Source: Acidithiobacillus ferrooxidans ATCC 23270 (GTDB lineage: Bacteria; Pseudomonadota; Gammaproteobacteria; Acidithiobacillales; Acidithiobacillaceae). Taken from it: 64,000 nt of DNA. This document shows positions 18,866 to 26,627 of this stretch, in pieces. The notes below the pieces were generated by a model. That model was not told the origin of the DNA. It saw nothing but the letters and a program-made list of their open reading frames with translations, and made no database searches. The stretch is from positions 1,208,001-1,272,000 of the forward strand of contig NC_011761.1 of assembly GCF_000021485.1 (NCBI RefSeq), written 5' to 3'. Position 1 is the stretch's first letter; every line of letters starts with the position of its first letter. The translations under genes were made by a program, and so were the position numbers.

Positions 18866-19687
18866 TCAATGCAGGGAGACCTGGGATTCCTCATCCCAGT
18901 GCACCAGTTCCAGGCGCCCCGTTGCGTGTTCCACGAGCGCCGTGCAACTCTCCACCCAGTCGCCGTCGTTGTGATACAGGATGCCTTCGATTTCCTTGAT
19001 CTCCGCATGATGAATATGGCCGCAGATGACCCCTTCGTAGCCCTCCCGGCGGCATGCCTGCGCCAAGACCTGTTCATAGTCGCCAATGAACTGCACCGCC
19101 TGTTTGACGCGGCGTTTTATGGTCGCGCTCAGGGACCAGCGACTATGCAGACCGATGCGGCGTATCGCCCATTGATACCGGCGATTGATGAAAAGGAGCA
19201 GCGTATAGCCGTGATCCCCGAGCCGGGTAAGCCAGGGAGCGTACCGCATCGTCACATCGAATTGATCCCCATGGATCACCCATAAGCGGCGGCCGTCGGC
19301 GGTCTCGTGAACGCAGCTGTCCACGATCTGGATATCTCCCAGGAGGATACGTTCCCCCTCTACAGGGACGAGATCGGAAAGCATTTCAAAAACCGGGTCA
19401 TGGTTGCCCCGTACATAGCGTACCTGCACCCCATGCCGGGCGAGACGAAGGATCTTTTGTACCACCGTATTGTGCGCGGGCGGCCAGTACCAGCGGCGCT
19501 TGAGTTGCCAGAGGTCGAGGATGTCTCCCACCAGATACAGGTATTCGCAGTGGTAATGACGCAGAAAGGAGAGCAAAGCCTCCGCCTGGCAGCCTCGAGT
19601 GCCCAGATGAATATCGGAAATAAAAATGGCGCGGCAGAAGACACCGAGCGGCTCCTCAGCATTCTTCGGCGCAGTGTGCGGCGGCAT
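18866..19687 (-). CDS. LpxH-like metallophosphatase (UDP-2,3-diacylglucosamine hydrolase family)
   Basis: Calcineurin-type metallophosphoesterase, 273 residues. All metal-binding motifs are present: FISDIHLG near 22-29, VGDILDLW near 53-60, RGNHDP near 94-99, HGDQFD near 139-144 and CGHIHHAEI near 218-226. The overall layout (GTRG after the first motif, long insert before GHIHH) matches the LpxH-related group often annotated as UDP-2,3-diacylglucosamine diphosphatase. The window has no other lpxH, so this may be the working lipid A enzyme, or it may act on a glycolipid with the nearby glycosyltransferases. It is transcribed away from them. Confidence 0.8.
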   Translation of the reverse strand: MPPHTAPKNAEEPLGVFCRAIFISDIHLGTRGCQAEALLSFLRHYHCEYLYLVGDILDLWQLKRRWYWPPAHNTVVQKILRLARHGVQVRYVRGNHDPVFEMLSDLVPVEGERILLGDIQIVDSCVHETADGRRLWVIHGDQFDVTMRYAPWLTRLGDHGYTLLLFINRRYQWAIRRIGLHSRWSLSATIKRRVKQAVQFIGDYEQVLAQACRREGYEGVICGHIHHAEIKEIEGILYHNDGDWVESCTALVEHATGRLELVHWDEESQVSLH

Positions 19688-21537: not shown

Positions 21538-22752
21538 ATGCGCATACTGATGCTCTCCGATACCTATTTCCCCCGCATCAGCGGGGTCGCCACCTCGATT
21601 CGCAGCTTTCGTAGGGGGCTGCAGGGACTTGGACACACGGTGGATCTGCTGGTCCCCGATTATGGGTCTTCCGTGCCGAACGATGATTCCGGCATCATGC
21701 GTGTGCCGGCCTGGAAAACGGGTTTTTATCCCGAAGAGCGATTGATGTGGCCTTGGGCACTCCTGCGCATGTCCCGTGAGCTGGCCGCCCGTCGCTATGA
21801 CCTGCTGCATGTCCAAACCCCCTTTGCCGCCCATTATATGGGCACCCATCTCGCCCGTAGGCTGGAGATACCGGTCCTGAGCTCCTACCACACCTATTTT
21901 GAGGCCTACATCGGTCACTATTATGCGGGCATACCCAAAATCCTGCGCCAAGCCCTGGCCCGGATCCCCTCACGTCAGCAGTGCCAGGCGGTAGATGGTG
22001 TGATCGTGCCCTCCATGGCCATGGCGAACGTGCTCTGGGGCTACGGCGTCAATACCCCGATCCGGGTCATCCCCACCGGCATTGATCTGACTGTGCAGAC
22101 AACGGGGGATCGGTCCGCCTTTCGCGATCGCCACGGCATCGCGGCAGACCGTTTGGTACTGCTTTATGCCGGGCGGATCGCTCCCGAAAAGAACATCGCC
22201 CTGCTGCTGGAAGTGGTCGGGCACCTGCGCGCGATTTTTCCGGATATCCTCTTGCTTCTGGCGGGCGACGGCCCTTTCAGGGAATCCCTGGAACAGCAGG
22301 TCGTGGAGAAGGATCTGACGGAGCAGGTTCGCTTTCTCGGCTATCTGGACCATGACACGGACTTGCGGGATGCCTATGCCGCCGCCGATCTTCTGGTGTT
22401 CGCCTCGGAAACCGAGACGCAGGGCATGGTATTGCTTGAAGCCCTGGCGGCGGGGCTACCTCTCGTCGCCATTGCGGCCATGGGTGCGGCGGACTTTGTG
22501 ACCAGTGGCCGCGGCACACGACCCGCACCGGCCCAAGCGTCCGGTTTTGCCGAGGTCTGTGCCGGCATTTTATCCAATGACATGCTGCGCGCGCGGATGG
22601 CGCAGGAAGCCAGACAACTGGCCACCCAATGGACCGAACCGGCCATGGCTGAACGTCTGCAGGCGTTTTACGCTGTTGCCGTCGCGGGCGGCAAGTCTGC
22701 TTCGAACCCCGCGGGTACATCATCCGCCCCTCATCGCACCAGTTCCAGATGA
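21538..22752 (+). CDS. Glycosyltransferase, GT4 family (second copy type)
   Basis: About 404 residues from ATG at 21538, which follows AAGGA by 7 nt. Start RILMLSDTYFPRISGVATSI, then SSYHTYFEAYIGHYYAG near 120-136, YAGRIAPEKNIALLLEV near 209-225, LLAGDGPFRESL, and EX7E in SETETQGMVLLEALAAGLP. It shares the same architecture as its neighbour, so the two may be successive transferases or diverged duplicates. The last about 40 residues (AGGKSASNPAGTSSAPHRTS) are low-complexity and run into the phosphatase relic on the other strand. Confidence 0.85.
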   Translation: MRILMLSDTYFPRISGVATSIRSFRRGLQGLGHTVDLLVPDYGSSVPNDDSGIMRVPAWKTGFYPEERLMWPWALLRMSRELAARRYDLLHVQTPFAAHYMGTHLARRLEIPVLSSYHTYFEAYIGHYYAGIPKILRQALARIPSRQQCQAVDGVIVPSMAMANVLWGYGVNTPIRVIPTGIDLTVQTTGDRSAFRDRHGIAADRLVLLYAGRIAPEKNIALLLEVVGHLRAIFPDILLLLAGDGPFRESLEQQVVEKDLTEQVRFLGYLDHDTDLRDAYAAADLLVFASETETQGMVLLEALAAGLPLVAIAAMGAADFVTSGRGTRPAPAQASGFAEVCAGILSNDMLRARMAQEARQLATQWTEPAMAERLQAFYAVAVAGGKSASNPAGTSSAPHRTSSR

Positions 22753-22991
22753 ACATCCAGATACGCAACGGGTACCGCGCAGTTCTCCACCCGGTCCTCA
22801 TCATTATTGGCGCATGACACCTCCATCACCTTGATTTCCGTGTGATGGAAATTGTCGCAGATCGCTCCGGCGTAGCCCTGGCTGCGACAGGTCTGCGCCA
22901 GACCTGCTTGTTCGCGATCATCGAGGTACCGTATTGAACGGTTTCCTGAGTTGGCGCCTAAGCACGATCCACAATACCCAATAATGTGCAC
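22731..22991 (-). pseudogene. Decayed C-terminal copy of the LpxH-like metallophosphatase
   Basis: The minus-strand translation aligns by eye with the last third of the phosphatase at 18.9-19.7 kb: REQAGLAQTCRSQGYAGAIC against YEQVLAQACRREGYEGVIC, HHTEIKVMEV against HHAEIKEIEG, and DEDRVENCAV against DGDWVESCTA, ending HLELVR against RLELVH. The metal-binding GHIHH has become DNFHH, and the N-terminal two-thirds are gone. It overlaps the 3' end of the second glycosyltransferase by 22 nt. Confidence 0.65.
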
Positions 22992-23480
22992 ATAGAATAA
23001 TTTTTGGATCGTTTATCTAATTGATTATTATCTTATTTAATGGCATGGCGAATCTGTCGCGGATAAGTCCTGTCGATGGGTTGACATCCGGCTGAAAAAG
23101 AATTAAACCTGCATCATACAAAACGATAAACGCATGTTAACATATTTGTTACATGCATCTGTTCGGCATCGAGTGGTGATGGATGGGTTTTCCATACGCT
23201 CCGGGTCCCAATCAGGCGGAGTGCCTGTGCGGTGGTCGCAGGACTGCGTATTCCGGTCAAAGGCGATCAGCGCGATGGCCGTGGTTCTTTTTTGTGAATC
23301 TGTATCAGTGAATCACCATGTTTATGAATGCTAACAAGGCGAATGGTGGTTCGTAACGTTTGGGATGTTTTCGATGTCGGGGATTTGTCTTTCGGCGCGA
23401 ATCGTTAACGAAGGGGGCAACAAAGGCAGGTGTGGGTTTGCAGCCCGGGAAAGGAAGAAACAAAAAAAGGGAGATCAAAT
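22992..23480. promoter_or_regulatory. Long AT-rich leader before the Cyc2-like gene
   Basis: About 490 nt with no convincing gene. It begins AT-rich (22985-23045). A perfect -35 TTGACA lies at 23081-23086, with a poor -10 TAAACC 17 bp on. An imperfect dyad GCATGT...ACATGC (23132-23156) follows. The ribosome-binding site AAAGGGAGA is at 23466-23474. If transcription starts near 23116, the leader is about 365 nt. Confidence 0.4.
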
Positions 23481-24929
23481 ATGAAAATTGAGTCGCGGAG
23501 CAGCATGCAGTGGAAGCACAAAATTCGTTGGGCTACATGCGCTACATTTATGGTCGGGGTGGCCGCATGTTCGGGCAATGCGTGGGCATTGCCGACATTC
23601 GCTCGTCAGACTGGCTGGTCGTGCGCAACGTGCCATACATCCTATCCTCAACTCACCCCCATGGGTCGTATGTTCAAGCTGCTGGGGTATACCAGTAATA
23701 ATGTTCAGCGGCAGCAGAAACTGGAAGCAAAGTTTGGAAAAAGCACCGCACTTCTGCTGATGCGCGTATCCCAGTTTTCGATTTTTTTTCAGGCGAGCTA
23801 TGCCAATGTGGCCGGGGGCCAGGCGGCCTTTAATGGGGCGGGGGTATCCAACCCGCCGGGTAACCAGAATGACATTCAATTTCCGCAACAGGTGAGTTTG
23901 TTCTATGCGGGGGAAATCACCCCCCATATCGGTGCATTCCTGCATCTGACATACAGCGGCAGAGGCGGTTTCGGTATGGACGACAGCGACATCCGTTGGG
24001 CGCACCCATGGAACCTGGGTCCCGATCAACTGCTGATCACCGGTGTCGAAGTGAATAATACGCCGACCGAGCCGGACATCTACAACACGGTACCAGACTG
24101 GTATGCGCCATTTTCGAGTTCCAAATATAGTGCCATCCGGCAGATACCCACCACCTTTATCGAAGGGGCGCATGGCGCCGGTTATCCTCTTGCGGGTATC
24201 GGCACTTACGAAGCCTATATTTTTGGGCAGGATAAGGCCAACTGGCTCTACTTCGAGGCGGACGGATACACCAACGCGGACGGTATTGGTGTACAGGCGA
24301 ACTCCGGAGGAGCATTCGGATATGCTAATGACGGCAGAATGCAGGGTGTCGCTCCCTATGTTCGTCTGGCCTATCAGCGCGACTGGGGTAACTGGAACTG
24401 GGAAGTCGGTACCTATGGGATGTGGAGTCGCCTGTATGATAGTCCCAATACCAAAGGCGGCCCGGTAGACAGTTTCGATGATTTTGATCTGGATAGCCAA
24501 TTGCAATGGCTGGATACGACGGACAACAGCAATGTCACATTGCACGCGGACTGGATACACGAGGATCAGGGCTTTGGCGCTTTTGGTGGTCCGACCAGTA
24601 ATCTTTCCAGTACGGCAACTGGACATCTCAACTCTCTCAATATAAATGGTTCCTACTGGTATCATGATCATTATGGTGTATCCGGTGGATATCTGGACAC
24701 CTGGGGTTCTGCCAACCCTGATCTCTGGGGAACGAGCTATTCCCATAATGGGTCTCCGGATACCAACGGAGAATGGATCGAGGCGTCTTATTTGCCCTGG
24801 TGGAACACCAGATTCTCGTTGCGGTATACCATGTTTAACCAATTTCGCGGGCTGACGAACAGTACGGCCACGAGTTTCGGCGCCTCGGCATACAATACGC
24901 TGGAGCTGCTGACCTGGATTTCATTTTAA
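23481..24929 (+). CDS. Cyc2-like outer-membrane monohaem cytochrome-porin
   Basis: 482 residues. A signal peptide (about 1-36, ending GNAWA) is followed by one haem site CATCH near 47-51 within ARQTGWSCATCHTSYPQLTP, the hallmark start of Cyc2 proteins. The remaining about 420 residues alternate polar and aromatic residues, with many Gly-Asn-Trp-Tyr turns, and end in a terminal Phe (LLTWISF), as expected of a single-chain beta barrel. Cyc2 of A. ferrooxidans takes electrons from Fe(II) at the cell surface; this protein has the same length and plan. It is paired with a c4-type cytochrome gene 14 nt on, but no oxidase or rusticyanin gene is nearby. Its substrate cannot be told from sequence. Confidence 0.85.
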   Translation: MKIESRSSMQWKHKIRWATCATFMVGVAACSGNAWALPTFARQTGWSCATCHTSYPQLTPMGRMFKLLGYTSNNVQRQQKLEAKFGKSTALLLMRVSQFSIFFQASYANVAGGQAAFNGAGVSNPPGNQNDIQFPQQVSLFYAGEITPHIGAFLHLTYSGRGGFGMDDSDIRWAHPWNLGPDQLLITGVEVNNTPTEPDIYNTVPDWYAPFSSSKYSAIRQIPTTFIEGAHGAGYPLAGIGTYEAYIFGQDKANWLYFEADGYTNADGIGVQANSGGAFGYANDGRMQGVAPYVRLAYQRDWGNWNWEVGTYGMWSRLYDSPNTKGGPVDSFDDFDLDSQLQWLDTTDNSNVTLHADWIHEDQGFGAFGGPTSNLSSTATGHLNSLNINGSYWYHDHYGVSGGYLDTWGSANPDLWGTSYSHNGSPDTNGEWIEASYLPWWNTRFSLRYTMFNQFRGLTNSTATSFGASAYNTLELLTWISF

Positions 24930-24943
24930 GGAGGGGGTGGGCT

Positions 24944-25585
24944 ATGTATCCTGTATTATCATCGAGCCGTTTCGCTCCTTCCCAAAAGAAGGGTGTTATC
25001 TGCACTGCCGCCGTAGCGTTGGCGATATTGAGCGCAGGTCCAGCACTGGCGCAGGTGCCACAATCTGTCCATCAGTCATGCATGATCTGCCACGGGCAGA
25101 CCGGCGAAAATACCATCTATCCGATGGTTCCGCGCCTGAGCGGCCAACAGGTGCAATATCTGGCATGGCAGCTGAAGCAGTTCAAGGCGCATACCCGTGC
25201 GGATCAAAATGCGCAGATTTACATGTGGCCGGTCGCGCAGGCCATGAGTCAGAAGGAAATCCAGTCGGTTGCGAAGTATTATGCGGCGCAATCGCCCATG
25301 CACAGCGCATCCTCGCCACGTCCCGGAGTCTCCGCGGGTAAGCAGATATTCCTGCAGGGGGTCGCTGCACAGGGTGTTCCCGCGTGTATGGCCTGCCACG
25401 CCGTGAACGCGACAGGTCGAGGGATATTCCCGCGACTGGCCGGGCAGCGATATGCATATATCGTTCAGCAGCTAACCTATCTGCATGATGGAAACCGGGT
25501 GAATCCCATCATGCAGCCCGTGGCGGAAAAGCTGACCAACCGGCAAATGCGGGAGGTGGCGGCTTATCTGTCCGGTCTGCATTGA
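24944..25585 (+). CDS. Dihaem c4-type periplasmic cytochrome c
   Basis: 213 residues. A signal peptide ends near AGPALAQ (about 36). Two haem c domains follow, with CMICH near 46-50 and CMACH near 146-150, and likely axial Met ligands in YPMVPRL/WPVAQAMS and in NPIMQPVAEKL. The repeat of PRLSGQQVQYLAWQLKQF and PRLAGQRYAYIVQQL shows the internal duplication of cytochrome c4. In the rus operon of A. ferrooxidans, Cyc1 of this class receives electrons from Cyc2; here the order and 14-nt spacing behind the Cyc2-like gene imply the same partnership. A strong GGAGGGGG site precedes the ATG. Confidence 0.88.
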   Translation: MYPVLSSSRFAPSQKKGVICTAAVALAILSAGPALAQVPQSVHQSCMICHGQTGENTIYPMVPRLSGQQVQYLAWQLKQFKAHTRADQNAQIYMWPVAQAMSQKEIQSVAKYYAAQSPMHSASSPRPGVSAGKQIFLQGVAAQGVPACMACHAVNATGRGIFPRLAGQRYAYIVQQLTYLHDGNRVNPIMQPVAEKLTNRQMREVAAYLSGLH

Positions 25586-25658
25586 GATCAATGAGGTGCG
25601 GTGGAGGCGCAGACTCTGGCACGCCCGGTATGGGCCATGTCCGGGTCTGCCACCAAAC

Positions 25659-26627
25659 TTATACCAGATGCTCCCCGGCCAGCTTGCAGGGATGGCCCGG
25701 ATCGCCTGTTTCCACTTGCAAGGTAGGATGGACGATCTGAAAATGCGCGCGCAATTCTTCACCGATTTCATGGAGCAGCGCATCGCCGGGATAGCCGTCG
25801 GGCATGACCAGATGCGCAGTCAGCGCAGTTTCGGTGGTGCTCATGGCCCAGATATGCAGGTCATGCACGGCCGTGACGTTGGGTATCCCAAGCAAATAAA
25901 CCCGTACCGCGTCGGTGTCGATACCCGGGGGGACGCCGTGCAGCGCCAGATGGGCGGAGTCACGCAATAAACCCCAGGTGGCCATCACAATCAATGCGCT
26001 GATAAGCAGACTGGCCGCAGAGTCCAGCCAGAACCAGTGGGTGAACAGCATCACGATCCCCGCAACAACTACGCCAAAAGAGATGGCTGCATCGCCTGCC
26101 ATGTGCAAAAACGCCGCGCGGATATTCAAGTCGCCTTTTCGTCCCGATAGGAAGAGCAGGGCGGTTCCCGTATTGATCACTACCCCGAAGGCCGCCACAC
26201 CGATTACGACGACACTTGCTACAGAGGCCGGGTGCAGCAGTCGCTCGATGGCTTCCCAGGCGATTCCGCCGGTGACCACCAGCAAAAAGACGGCATTCGC
26301 CAGCGCCGCGAGAATGGAAGAACTGCGTAGTCCATAGGTAAATCGCCCCGAAGGGGGGCGGTTGGCAAGGGCACTCGCTCCCCAGGCCATGAGCAGCCCC
26401 AGAACGTCACTGAGGTTATGGCCGGCGTCTGCCAGCAGCGCGAGGGAATGCCCAAGCACCCCGAACACCGCCTCGGTCAGTACGAAGCTCAGATTGAGTC
26501 CAATGCCGATCGCAAAAGCACGGCCATTCACGGGGGCATGACCATGCGCTCCATGGTGGTGTCCGTGATCATGAGGGGGCGCATGGGTATGCGGGGATTC
26601 TGTATGATCGGTGTGGTCGTGTGCCAT
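25659..26627 (-). CDS. Cation diffusion facilitator metal exporter (ZitB/CzcD type)
   Basis: Proton-driven efflux of Zn and possibly Cd or Co across the inner membrane. 322 residues. A His-rich N-terminus (HDHTDHTE, then HDHGHHHGAHGHA) precedes six membrane helices; the metal site is HNLSD near 71-75 and HMAGD near 176-180, the zinc-type HXXXD arrangement; a cytoplasmic ferredoxin-like domain lies near 235-305 (VHDLHIWAMSTTETALTAH). It diverges from a MerR-family gene across 103 nt holding a MerR-type promoter. Confidence 0.92.
   Translation of the reverse strand: MAHDHTDHTESPHTHAPPHDHGHHHGAHGHAPVNGRAFAIGIGLNLSFVLTEAVFGVLGHSLALLADAGHNLSDVLGLLMAWGASALANRPPSGRFTYGLRSSSILAALANAVFLLVVTGGIAWEAIERLLHPASVASVVVIGVAAFGVVINTGTALLFLSGRKGDLNIRAAFLHMAGDAAISFGVVVAGIVMLFTHWFWLDSAASLLISALIVMATWGLLRDSAHLALHGVPPGIDTDAVRVYLLGIPNVTAVHDLHIWAMSTTETALTAHLVMPDGYPGDALLHEIGEELRAHFQIVHPTLQVETGDPGHPCKLAGEHLV

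Follow-up and report, generated by a model that had tools for sequence, protein, structure and literature searches.

A Cyc2-Cyc1 gene pair outside the rus operon of Acidithiobacillus ferrooxidans as the probable outer-membrane end of a petII-linked Fe(III)-respiration chain

Acidithiobacillus ferrooxidans ATCC 23270 carries, outside its rus operon, two adjoining genes that encode a Cyc2-type outer-membrane haem-porin and a two-haem cytochrome c4. They lie in a stretch of 64,000 nucleotides (the window, positions 1208001-1272000 of the single-contig genome NC_011761.1 of 2,982,397 bases), and positions below are those of the window unless stated otherwise. The pair, which we take to be the published and hence already known Cyc2B-Cyc1B, probably completes, at the outer membrane, an anaerobic chain of Fe(III) respiration that runs through the second bc1 complex, encoded by petII, and was probably relocated from the front of the petII operon. 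We are slightly inclined to go further and to propose that the terminal reductase so far missing from the petII branch is Cyc2B-Cyc1B, that an ancestral nrdDG-ubiVUT-cyc2B-cyc1B-petII cluster was repeatedly split by deletion and relocation in the iron-oxidising species with a common control element being kept, and that barrels were swapped between the rus and petII systems by gene conversion. The evidence observed directly comprises the identities of the two proteins, their paralogy with the rus operon products, the gene linkage in relatives, a deletion remnant and an upstream element shared with petII. The features of the pair are as follows.

23481..24929, plus strand: cyc2B, Cyc2-type outer-membrane haem-porin of 482 amino acids, from sequence, tree and predicted structure
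23622..23636, plus strand: CATCH, sole haem-binding motif of Cyc2B, residues 48-52, from translation
23775..24923, plus strand: predicted 16-stranded barrel of Cyc2B, residues 99-481, from AlphaFold2, with a porin-like fold
24944..25585, plus strand: cyc1B, two-haem cytochrome c4 of 213 amino acids with its own signal-peptide-like start, from two CXXCH motifs and c4/Cyc1 similarity
25079..25093, plus strand: haem 1 motif CMICH of cyc1B, from translation
25385..25399, plus strand: haem 2 motif CMACH of cyc1B (CMECH in rus-type Cyc1), from alignment

The cyc2B gene begins with an ATG at 23481 that is preceded by a GGGAG ribosome-binding site and ends with the stop codon at 24929; cyc1B follows after a gap of 14 nt and has a ribosome-binding site as well. 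The CATCH motif sits within ALPTFARQTGWSCATCHTSYPQLTP, right behind a signal-peptide-like start that was judged by eye, and the protein has the hallmark of Cyc2, one CXXCH near the mature N-terminus inside FARQTG..C..CH..P.LTP. Across the 26 rows of the Cyc2 alignment C48, C51 and H52 of the haem motif are unchanged, and R42, Q43, P56 and L58 are also invariant. The AlphaFold2 model from this alignment has 16 strands over residues 99-481 (mean predicted local distance difference test score (pLDDT) 70.8, predicted template modelling score 0.74), with a pLDDT below 50 at residues 21-47, which adjoin the haem motif. Outer-membrane porins are the closest solved folds (VIA-align Z up to 21.4, root-mean-square deviation 4.0 over 322 residues), and Foldseek matched the model to porins with E down to 1.4e-8, yet with query template modelling scores of only ~0.25-0.42. 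By prediction, Cyc2B thus has the 16-stranded outer-membrane barrel of a Cyc2. An earlier model from 10 rows, with a pLDDT of 46, was given no weight. The Cyc2B protein has no family match in Pfam or PHROGs, and no NCBIfam family came close to its cut-off.

Cyc1B has the two c-type haem domains of cytochrome c4 and Cyc1, and its best solved relative is 1h1o, entry title 'CYTOCHROME C-552' (E 3e-63). A preliminary description of this DNA had read it as a single-CXXCH N-terminus joined to a barrel-like chain of Cyc2 length, followed 14 nt on by a two-haem c4 cytochrome with its own signal peptide and then by a leftward metal exporter. These assignments agree with what we find, the exporter being a cation-efflux protein (PF01545) encoded 3' of the pair at 25659-26627 on the minus strand. 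The ratio of nonsynonymous to synonymous substitution rates is ~0.07 for cyc2 of the pair (two comparisons) and 0.14-0.25 for cyc1 (three comparisons); both genes evolve under purifying selection, and the pair is no chance pattern. Scans for sigma-70 promoters and terminators over 22900-25800 gave nothing beyond shuffled controls.

The rus operon of the same genome has its own cyc2 and cyc1, at genome positions 2833977-2836096 on the minus strand, about 1.6 Mb from the window, and behind them lie cup, coxB, coxA, coxC and the rusticyanin gene (the labels cup, coxB, coxA, coxC, cycA, sdrA, petA, petC and res are taken from the gene order in PMC2754497 and PMC10654088). The two Cyc2 proteins are 66% identical and the two Cyc1 proteins 54%. 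Judged by sequence, the window pair is a paralogue of the first two genes of the rus operon and not a displaced sole copy. The preliminary description had suggested a genome search for a rus-type cyc2 cluster, which finds this operon, and a tree of Cyc2 proteins, which places the window protein in the Cyc2 clade, away from plain porins. Its statement that no oxidase genes lie near the pair also holds, all CoxA matches of the genome being outside the window; the pair is indeed a second copy, and it stands alone in this genome. Two other possibilities are ruled out: a plain porin without haem, by the conserved haem motif and the placement in the Cyc2 clade, and the organism's only Cyc2 with the oxidase genes located elsewhere, by the second Cyc2 of the rus operon.

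In the Cyc2 tree of 24 rows, the 14 Cyc2 proteins of the Acidithiobacillaceae form one clade (100/100), and the window protein, together with those of G007 and G011 (G numbers are our labels for genomes), forms a distinct B group (96/93). The tree was built without the frameshifted Cyc2B of G003 and without the second A. ferrianus copy, the scores of which equal those of the first; it took 10 of 28 further Cyc2-bearing genomes, and the outgroups G269 and G291 entered it without trimming to the haem motif. For Cyc1, the tree was given six chosen CycA, two distant Cyc1 and a single one of the two A. ferrianus copies; support for its deep forks is low (46-75), which leaves the branching of the second-genus, B and A groups uncertain.

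Besides the rus operon products, the window pair encodes the sole other Cyc2 and the closest other Cyc1 of the genome. We identify it with Cyc2B-Cyc1B because the genome has exactly one such extra pair. The genes of Cyc2B-Cyc1B are DN052_01245-DN052_01250 (Norris et al. 2018 as cited by PMC7735108), and Cyc2B is ACK78881 in PMC10715153. According to PMC7735108, the study by Norris et al. 2018 found the homologues of Cyc1A and Cyc2A, Cyc1B and Cyc2B, as a two-gene cluster in anaerobic S0/Fe3+ growth, and Cyc1B, Cyc2B and the complete petII operon were raised in anaerobic H2/Fe3+ growth. Cyc1B and Cyc2B are mentioned too in PMC8790237 and PMC10715153, and in A. ferridurans Cyc1-like and Cyc2-like proteins rise jointly with the petII products (PMC12053936).

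The link to petII comes from a survey of 31 genomes of the order, 17 of which are within the genus. Cyc2 is present in 11 of the 31, and eight genomes have a cyc2-cyc1 pair outside the rus operon. In five of these eight (G011, G012, G014, G023 and G024) the pair stands right upstream of cycA2-sdrA2-petA2-petB2 on the same strand, with petC2 and hip coming next in four loci; the contig of G011 stops within petB2. The five petII-linked loci belong to two genera (G011, G012 and G014 to the same genus, G023 and G024 to a second) and have differing flanks, and the pairs of G023 and G024 are called pair-type by their position and their CMACH motif, not by the trees. In the window genome, G003 and G007 (A. 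ferruginosus) the pair lies between a glycosyltransferase and the cation exporter, and in the window genome it is 1.2 Mb from the petII operon and does not adjoin cycA2. A. ferrianus (G002), A. ferriphilus (G004) and A. ferrivorans (G005) have only a rus-type Cyc2.

The order of the locus in Acidithiobacillus is nrdD-nrdG-lplA-like-ubiV-ubiU-ubiT-NMO (nitronate monooxygenase)-(pair)-petII. The A. ferriphilus locus is without the lplA-like and ubi genes, the contig of G013 begins within the lplA-like gene, and in seven genomes the NMO gene is followed by petII without the pair. The families tested were PetB and hip of petII, NrdD, NrdG, LplA-like and NMO of the window genome, and UbiU, UbiV and UbiT of G002. 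NrdD and NrdG2 of the window genome score above curated cut-offs, and the G002 copies of UbiU, UbiV and UbiT score above the NCBIfam curated cut-offs for the oxygen-independent ubiquinone pathway, as UbiU does in the window genome. UbiU occurs in 12 of the 31 genomes; within the genus it is found in 9/10 genomes with petII and 0/7 without. Wherever it has not been displaced, the pair adjoins the genes of a quinol-oxidising bc1 complex, and in Acidithiobacillus those of anaerobic ubiquinone synthesis too.

Two genomes retain traces of the pair's former place. In A. ferrivorans 123 bp from the end of cyc1B survive before cycA2 (86% identity, E ~1e-37; the assembly is 4.6 Mb in 880 contigs with 7% contamination), and in A. 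ferriphilus both flanks of the pair's site meet. The pair has therefore been lost from the petII site in these two species at least. Because of the A. ferrivorans remnant, it is unlikely that the pair was recently inserted into petII in some of the species. The petII operon would originally have begun with the pair; in the window genome, G007 and G003, which form one group, a copy would have moved with its upstream element to the present site and the original would have been lost, and in other species the pair would have been deleted. The left edge of the pair-carrying segment is marked by a gene fragment.

22737..22943, minus strand: fragment of an lpxH-like phosphoesterase gene, from comparison with G012 and G014

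This fragment is also present in G003 and G007; in G012 and G014 the gene is intact and stands behind the same glycosyltransferase. The window has an intact lpxH-like gene as well (18869-19687, minus strand), beside which the fragment represents a second one. On the other side of the fragment, towards the pair, is the element shared with petII.

23288..23336, plus strand: conserved upstream element, common to the pair and the petII operon of the same genome, from alignment

Over its ~49 bases the element is 82% identical to a site upstream of petII in the same genome, and the surroundings there are little conserved. The pairs of G003, G007, G011, G012 and G014 are preceded by it as well. Upstream of petII the alignment scores are 62 in the window genome, 62 in G007, 57 in G003 and 50 in G013, compared to 18-28 at element-free places. 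A 19-base core (23304-23322) with up to 3 mismatches occurs at exactly two places in the 2.98 Mb genome and its reversed control at none; the core pattern was built from those two sites, and the informative part is that there is no third. The element was seen before neither the rus nor the petI operon. It may be a common control site that was carried along in the move of the pair.

Several of the loci surveyed have features of their own. In G013 (L106), which is 96% complete, petII looks intact, ubiU has two stop codons and no Cyc2 was found. In G003 (L069:10675-13804) cyc2B is broken by a one-base gap in a run of G, and the neighbouring exporter gene has such gaps too; the gap may be a sequencing error and was not counted as a loss. 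A Cyc2-like protein has been reported in the proteome of A. ferridurans (PMC12053936), the species that G003 is presumed to represent. A. ferrianus has two rus operon copies on separate contigs (L028, L029) with equal match scores for every compared gene. A gene for a small SoxA/TsdA-type cytochrome lies behind hip in some petII loci (G012, L066:17238-17723; G014, G004 and G005). In G024 (L112, C8) there are a rus-type CoxA (72%) and two matches to rusticyanin, and the only Cyc2 found in this 61% complete genome is the petII-linked one.

The haem 2 motif separates the two kinds of Cyc1. Among 23 rows, CMACH is present in 8/8 pair-type Cyc1 proteins and CMECH in 7/7 rus-type proteins; the remaining rows have CMACH (6/6 CycA) or CMSCH (2/2 distant Cyc1). 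The Glu of CMECH corresponds by alignment to residue 121 of 1h1o, which we take to have a role in rusticyanin docking; a literature search on the residue name gave no paper. The barrel of Cyc2 has a different history in two relatives. In G012 and G014 the Cyc1 of the pair clusters with the B forms (92/95) and the Cyc2 lies inside the rus-type clade, a tree forcing it to the B forms being rejected (p 6e-7). DNA identity in both genomes changes from B-type to A-type past the haem region and returns to B-type at cyc1. The resulting mosaic cyc2 of the petII-linked pair (L066:9984-12183 in G012, L067:7685-9884 in G014) has a B-type signal peptide and haem end and an A-type (rus) barrel. It probably arose by gene conversion, in which the barrel was replaced and the haem end, signal and partner were retained. 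The mosaic suggests that the direction of electron flow is not set by the barrel.

From these data we infer the direction of flow, the partners of the pair and the order of its moves. Quinol would be oxidised by the second bc1 complex (bc1 II), and the electrons would pass through CycA2 to Cyc1B and on to outer-membrane Cyc2B, which would take them up at its haem and hand them to Fe(III) outside the cell. With the potentials quoted in PMC7735108 (ubiquinone +110 mV; CycA, Cyc1 and Cyc2 +385 to +560 mV), such a chain would be downhill towards Fe(III) at low pH. Outward flow is more likely because of the linkage of the pair to petII and anaerobic ubiquinone genes in relatives and because of the published anaerobic Fe(III) induction. 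The preliminary description had spoken of electron uptake, and the same evidence points away from that direction. Its third suggestion comes close, in so far as the pair would be an iron paralogue for other conditions.

A number of observations weigh against the proposed Fe(III)-reducing role and history. The Cyc2 proteins of G023 and G024 join the rus side of the Cyc2 tree (92/89), and their Cyc1 proteins join the B side of the Cyc1 tree at only 46/48; the trees thus do not show this pair to be B-type. Both genomes are without UbiU, and UbiU occurs in three non-petII genomes outside the genus (G020, G029 and G030), so it is no specific mark. G013 has petII yet no Cyc2. The upstream element is weak before petII in G004 (score 34) and G005 (38), and it was not found upstream of petII in G002 or upstream of the pair in G023 and G024. 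Fe(III) respiration has been reported for A. ferrianus, A. ferriphilus and A. ferrivorans (PMC7040056, PMC8528912), which show no such pair; therefore the pair is not required, and Cyc2A can probably serve too. As described in PMC7735108, nearly all rus products rise without oxygen too, Cyc2A and Cyc1A exceed the B forms in abundance, and in the model given there electrons also travel via rusticyanin or Hip. Finally, a bc1-linked conduit could in principle run backwards, and gene order proves no direction.

Among the alternatives, it is unlikely that the pair is a second Fe(II)-oxidising conduit that delivers electrons to the shared rusticyanin and aa3 oxidase encoded by rus under particular aerobic conditions. 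The 66% identity of Cyc2B to Cyc2A, the presence of rus-type CoxA and rusticyanin in the genome, and the A-type barrel in the pair of G012 and G014, by which barrels seem interchangeable, are consistent with such a role, and Ai et al. 2018 report a 'novel gene cluster' for Fe2+ oxidation in ATCC 23270 that may or may not be the window pair. However, cox or rus genes stand beside the pair in none of the eight genomes whose flanks were read and petII stands there in five, so that the shared-oxidase conduit of the preliminary description probably gives way to a tie with the petII bc1 complex. The pair-type Cyc1 also lacks the CMECH of all seven examined rus-type Cyc1 proteins, and the induction reported is anaerobic (PMC7735108). 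In G012, G014 and G023, which have the pair and petII, no rus-type CoxA, rusticyanin or petI was found; the shared aa3 oxidase would therefore be missing there. These absences are provisional, as the three genomes are 85-91% complete, which weighs against our interpretation, and those of rus and petI are not independent because the two lie close together in G007 and the window genome.

It is quite improbable that the conduit is reversible, reducing Fe(III) without oxygen and, with oxygen, feeding bc1 II from Fe(II) or a cathode so that NADH is formed by reverse electron flow. The published potentials of Cyc2, Cyc1 and CycA are near each other (PMC7735108), and the title of a cited reference reports that the bc1 complex of iron-grown cells works in reverse. 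The iron-induced bc1 operon, however, is petI and not petII (PMC2754497), and petII is raised on sulfur relative to Fe(II) (PMC2754497) and in anaerobic H2/Fe3+ growth (PMC7735108). A conduit for a donor or acceptor other than iron, such as sulfur compounds, other metals or an electrode, is very improbable: petII is raised on sulfur-containing media (PMC2754497) and the expression of 'Cyc2 and Cyc1', copies not specified, goes up under Hg stress (PMC10141921), but among the 17 genomes of the genus the seven without petII have no Cyc2 either, and no Cyc2 was found without either the rus or the petII module.

A 2022 review proposes one Fe(III) branch in which 'a still unknown reductase' receives electrons from bc1 complex II by way of CycA2 and Hip (PMC8790237). 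Through its linkage in relatives, the remnant left by deletion and the element shared with petII, the pair becomes a candidate for the reductase of the petII branch and its periplasmic partner. If the single-cluster history is true, the ancestral cluster would have combined much of the quinol-to-Fe(III) chain with oxygen-independent ubiquinone synthesis. The use of the Cyc2 gene as a marker for Fe(II) oxidation has been discussed (PMC7029218); our results suggest that this gene can belong to an Fe(III)-reducing module, and the genes around it (bc1 or oxidase), rather than Cyc2 alone, may indicate direction. Searches of an open-access library without Norris et al. 2018 turned up no earlier report of the petII-ubiUVT linkage, the cyc1B remnant or the shared element, and priority for them is uncertain.

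The window pair can be compared to four known systems. Like the published Cyc2B-Cyc1B, it consists of two clustered genes that encode homologues of Cyc2A and Cyc1A and are located apart from the rus operon, and we know of no difference between the two systems. It also resembles the cyc2 and cyc1 genes of Acidithiobacillus that lie outside rus operons in Fig. 2d of PMC10654088; in the section on them they are handled as stand-alone genes, some with flanking transposases, and a petII link is not mentioned there. The rus operon has the same gene order, type of haem region and barrel. It differs in that its cyc2 and cyc1 are followed by cup, cox and rus genes, whereas the window pair is followed by an opposed cation exporter, and in that rus-type Cyc1 has CMECH at haem 2 where Cyc1B has CMACH. 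The petII operon (cycA2-sdrA2-petA2B2C2-hip) is distant from the pair in the window genome, but it is joined to the pair in five relatives and shares the upstream element with it in this genome.

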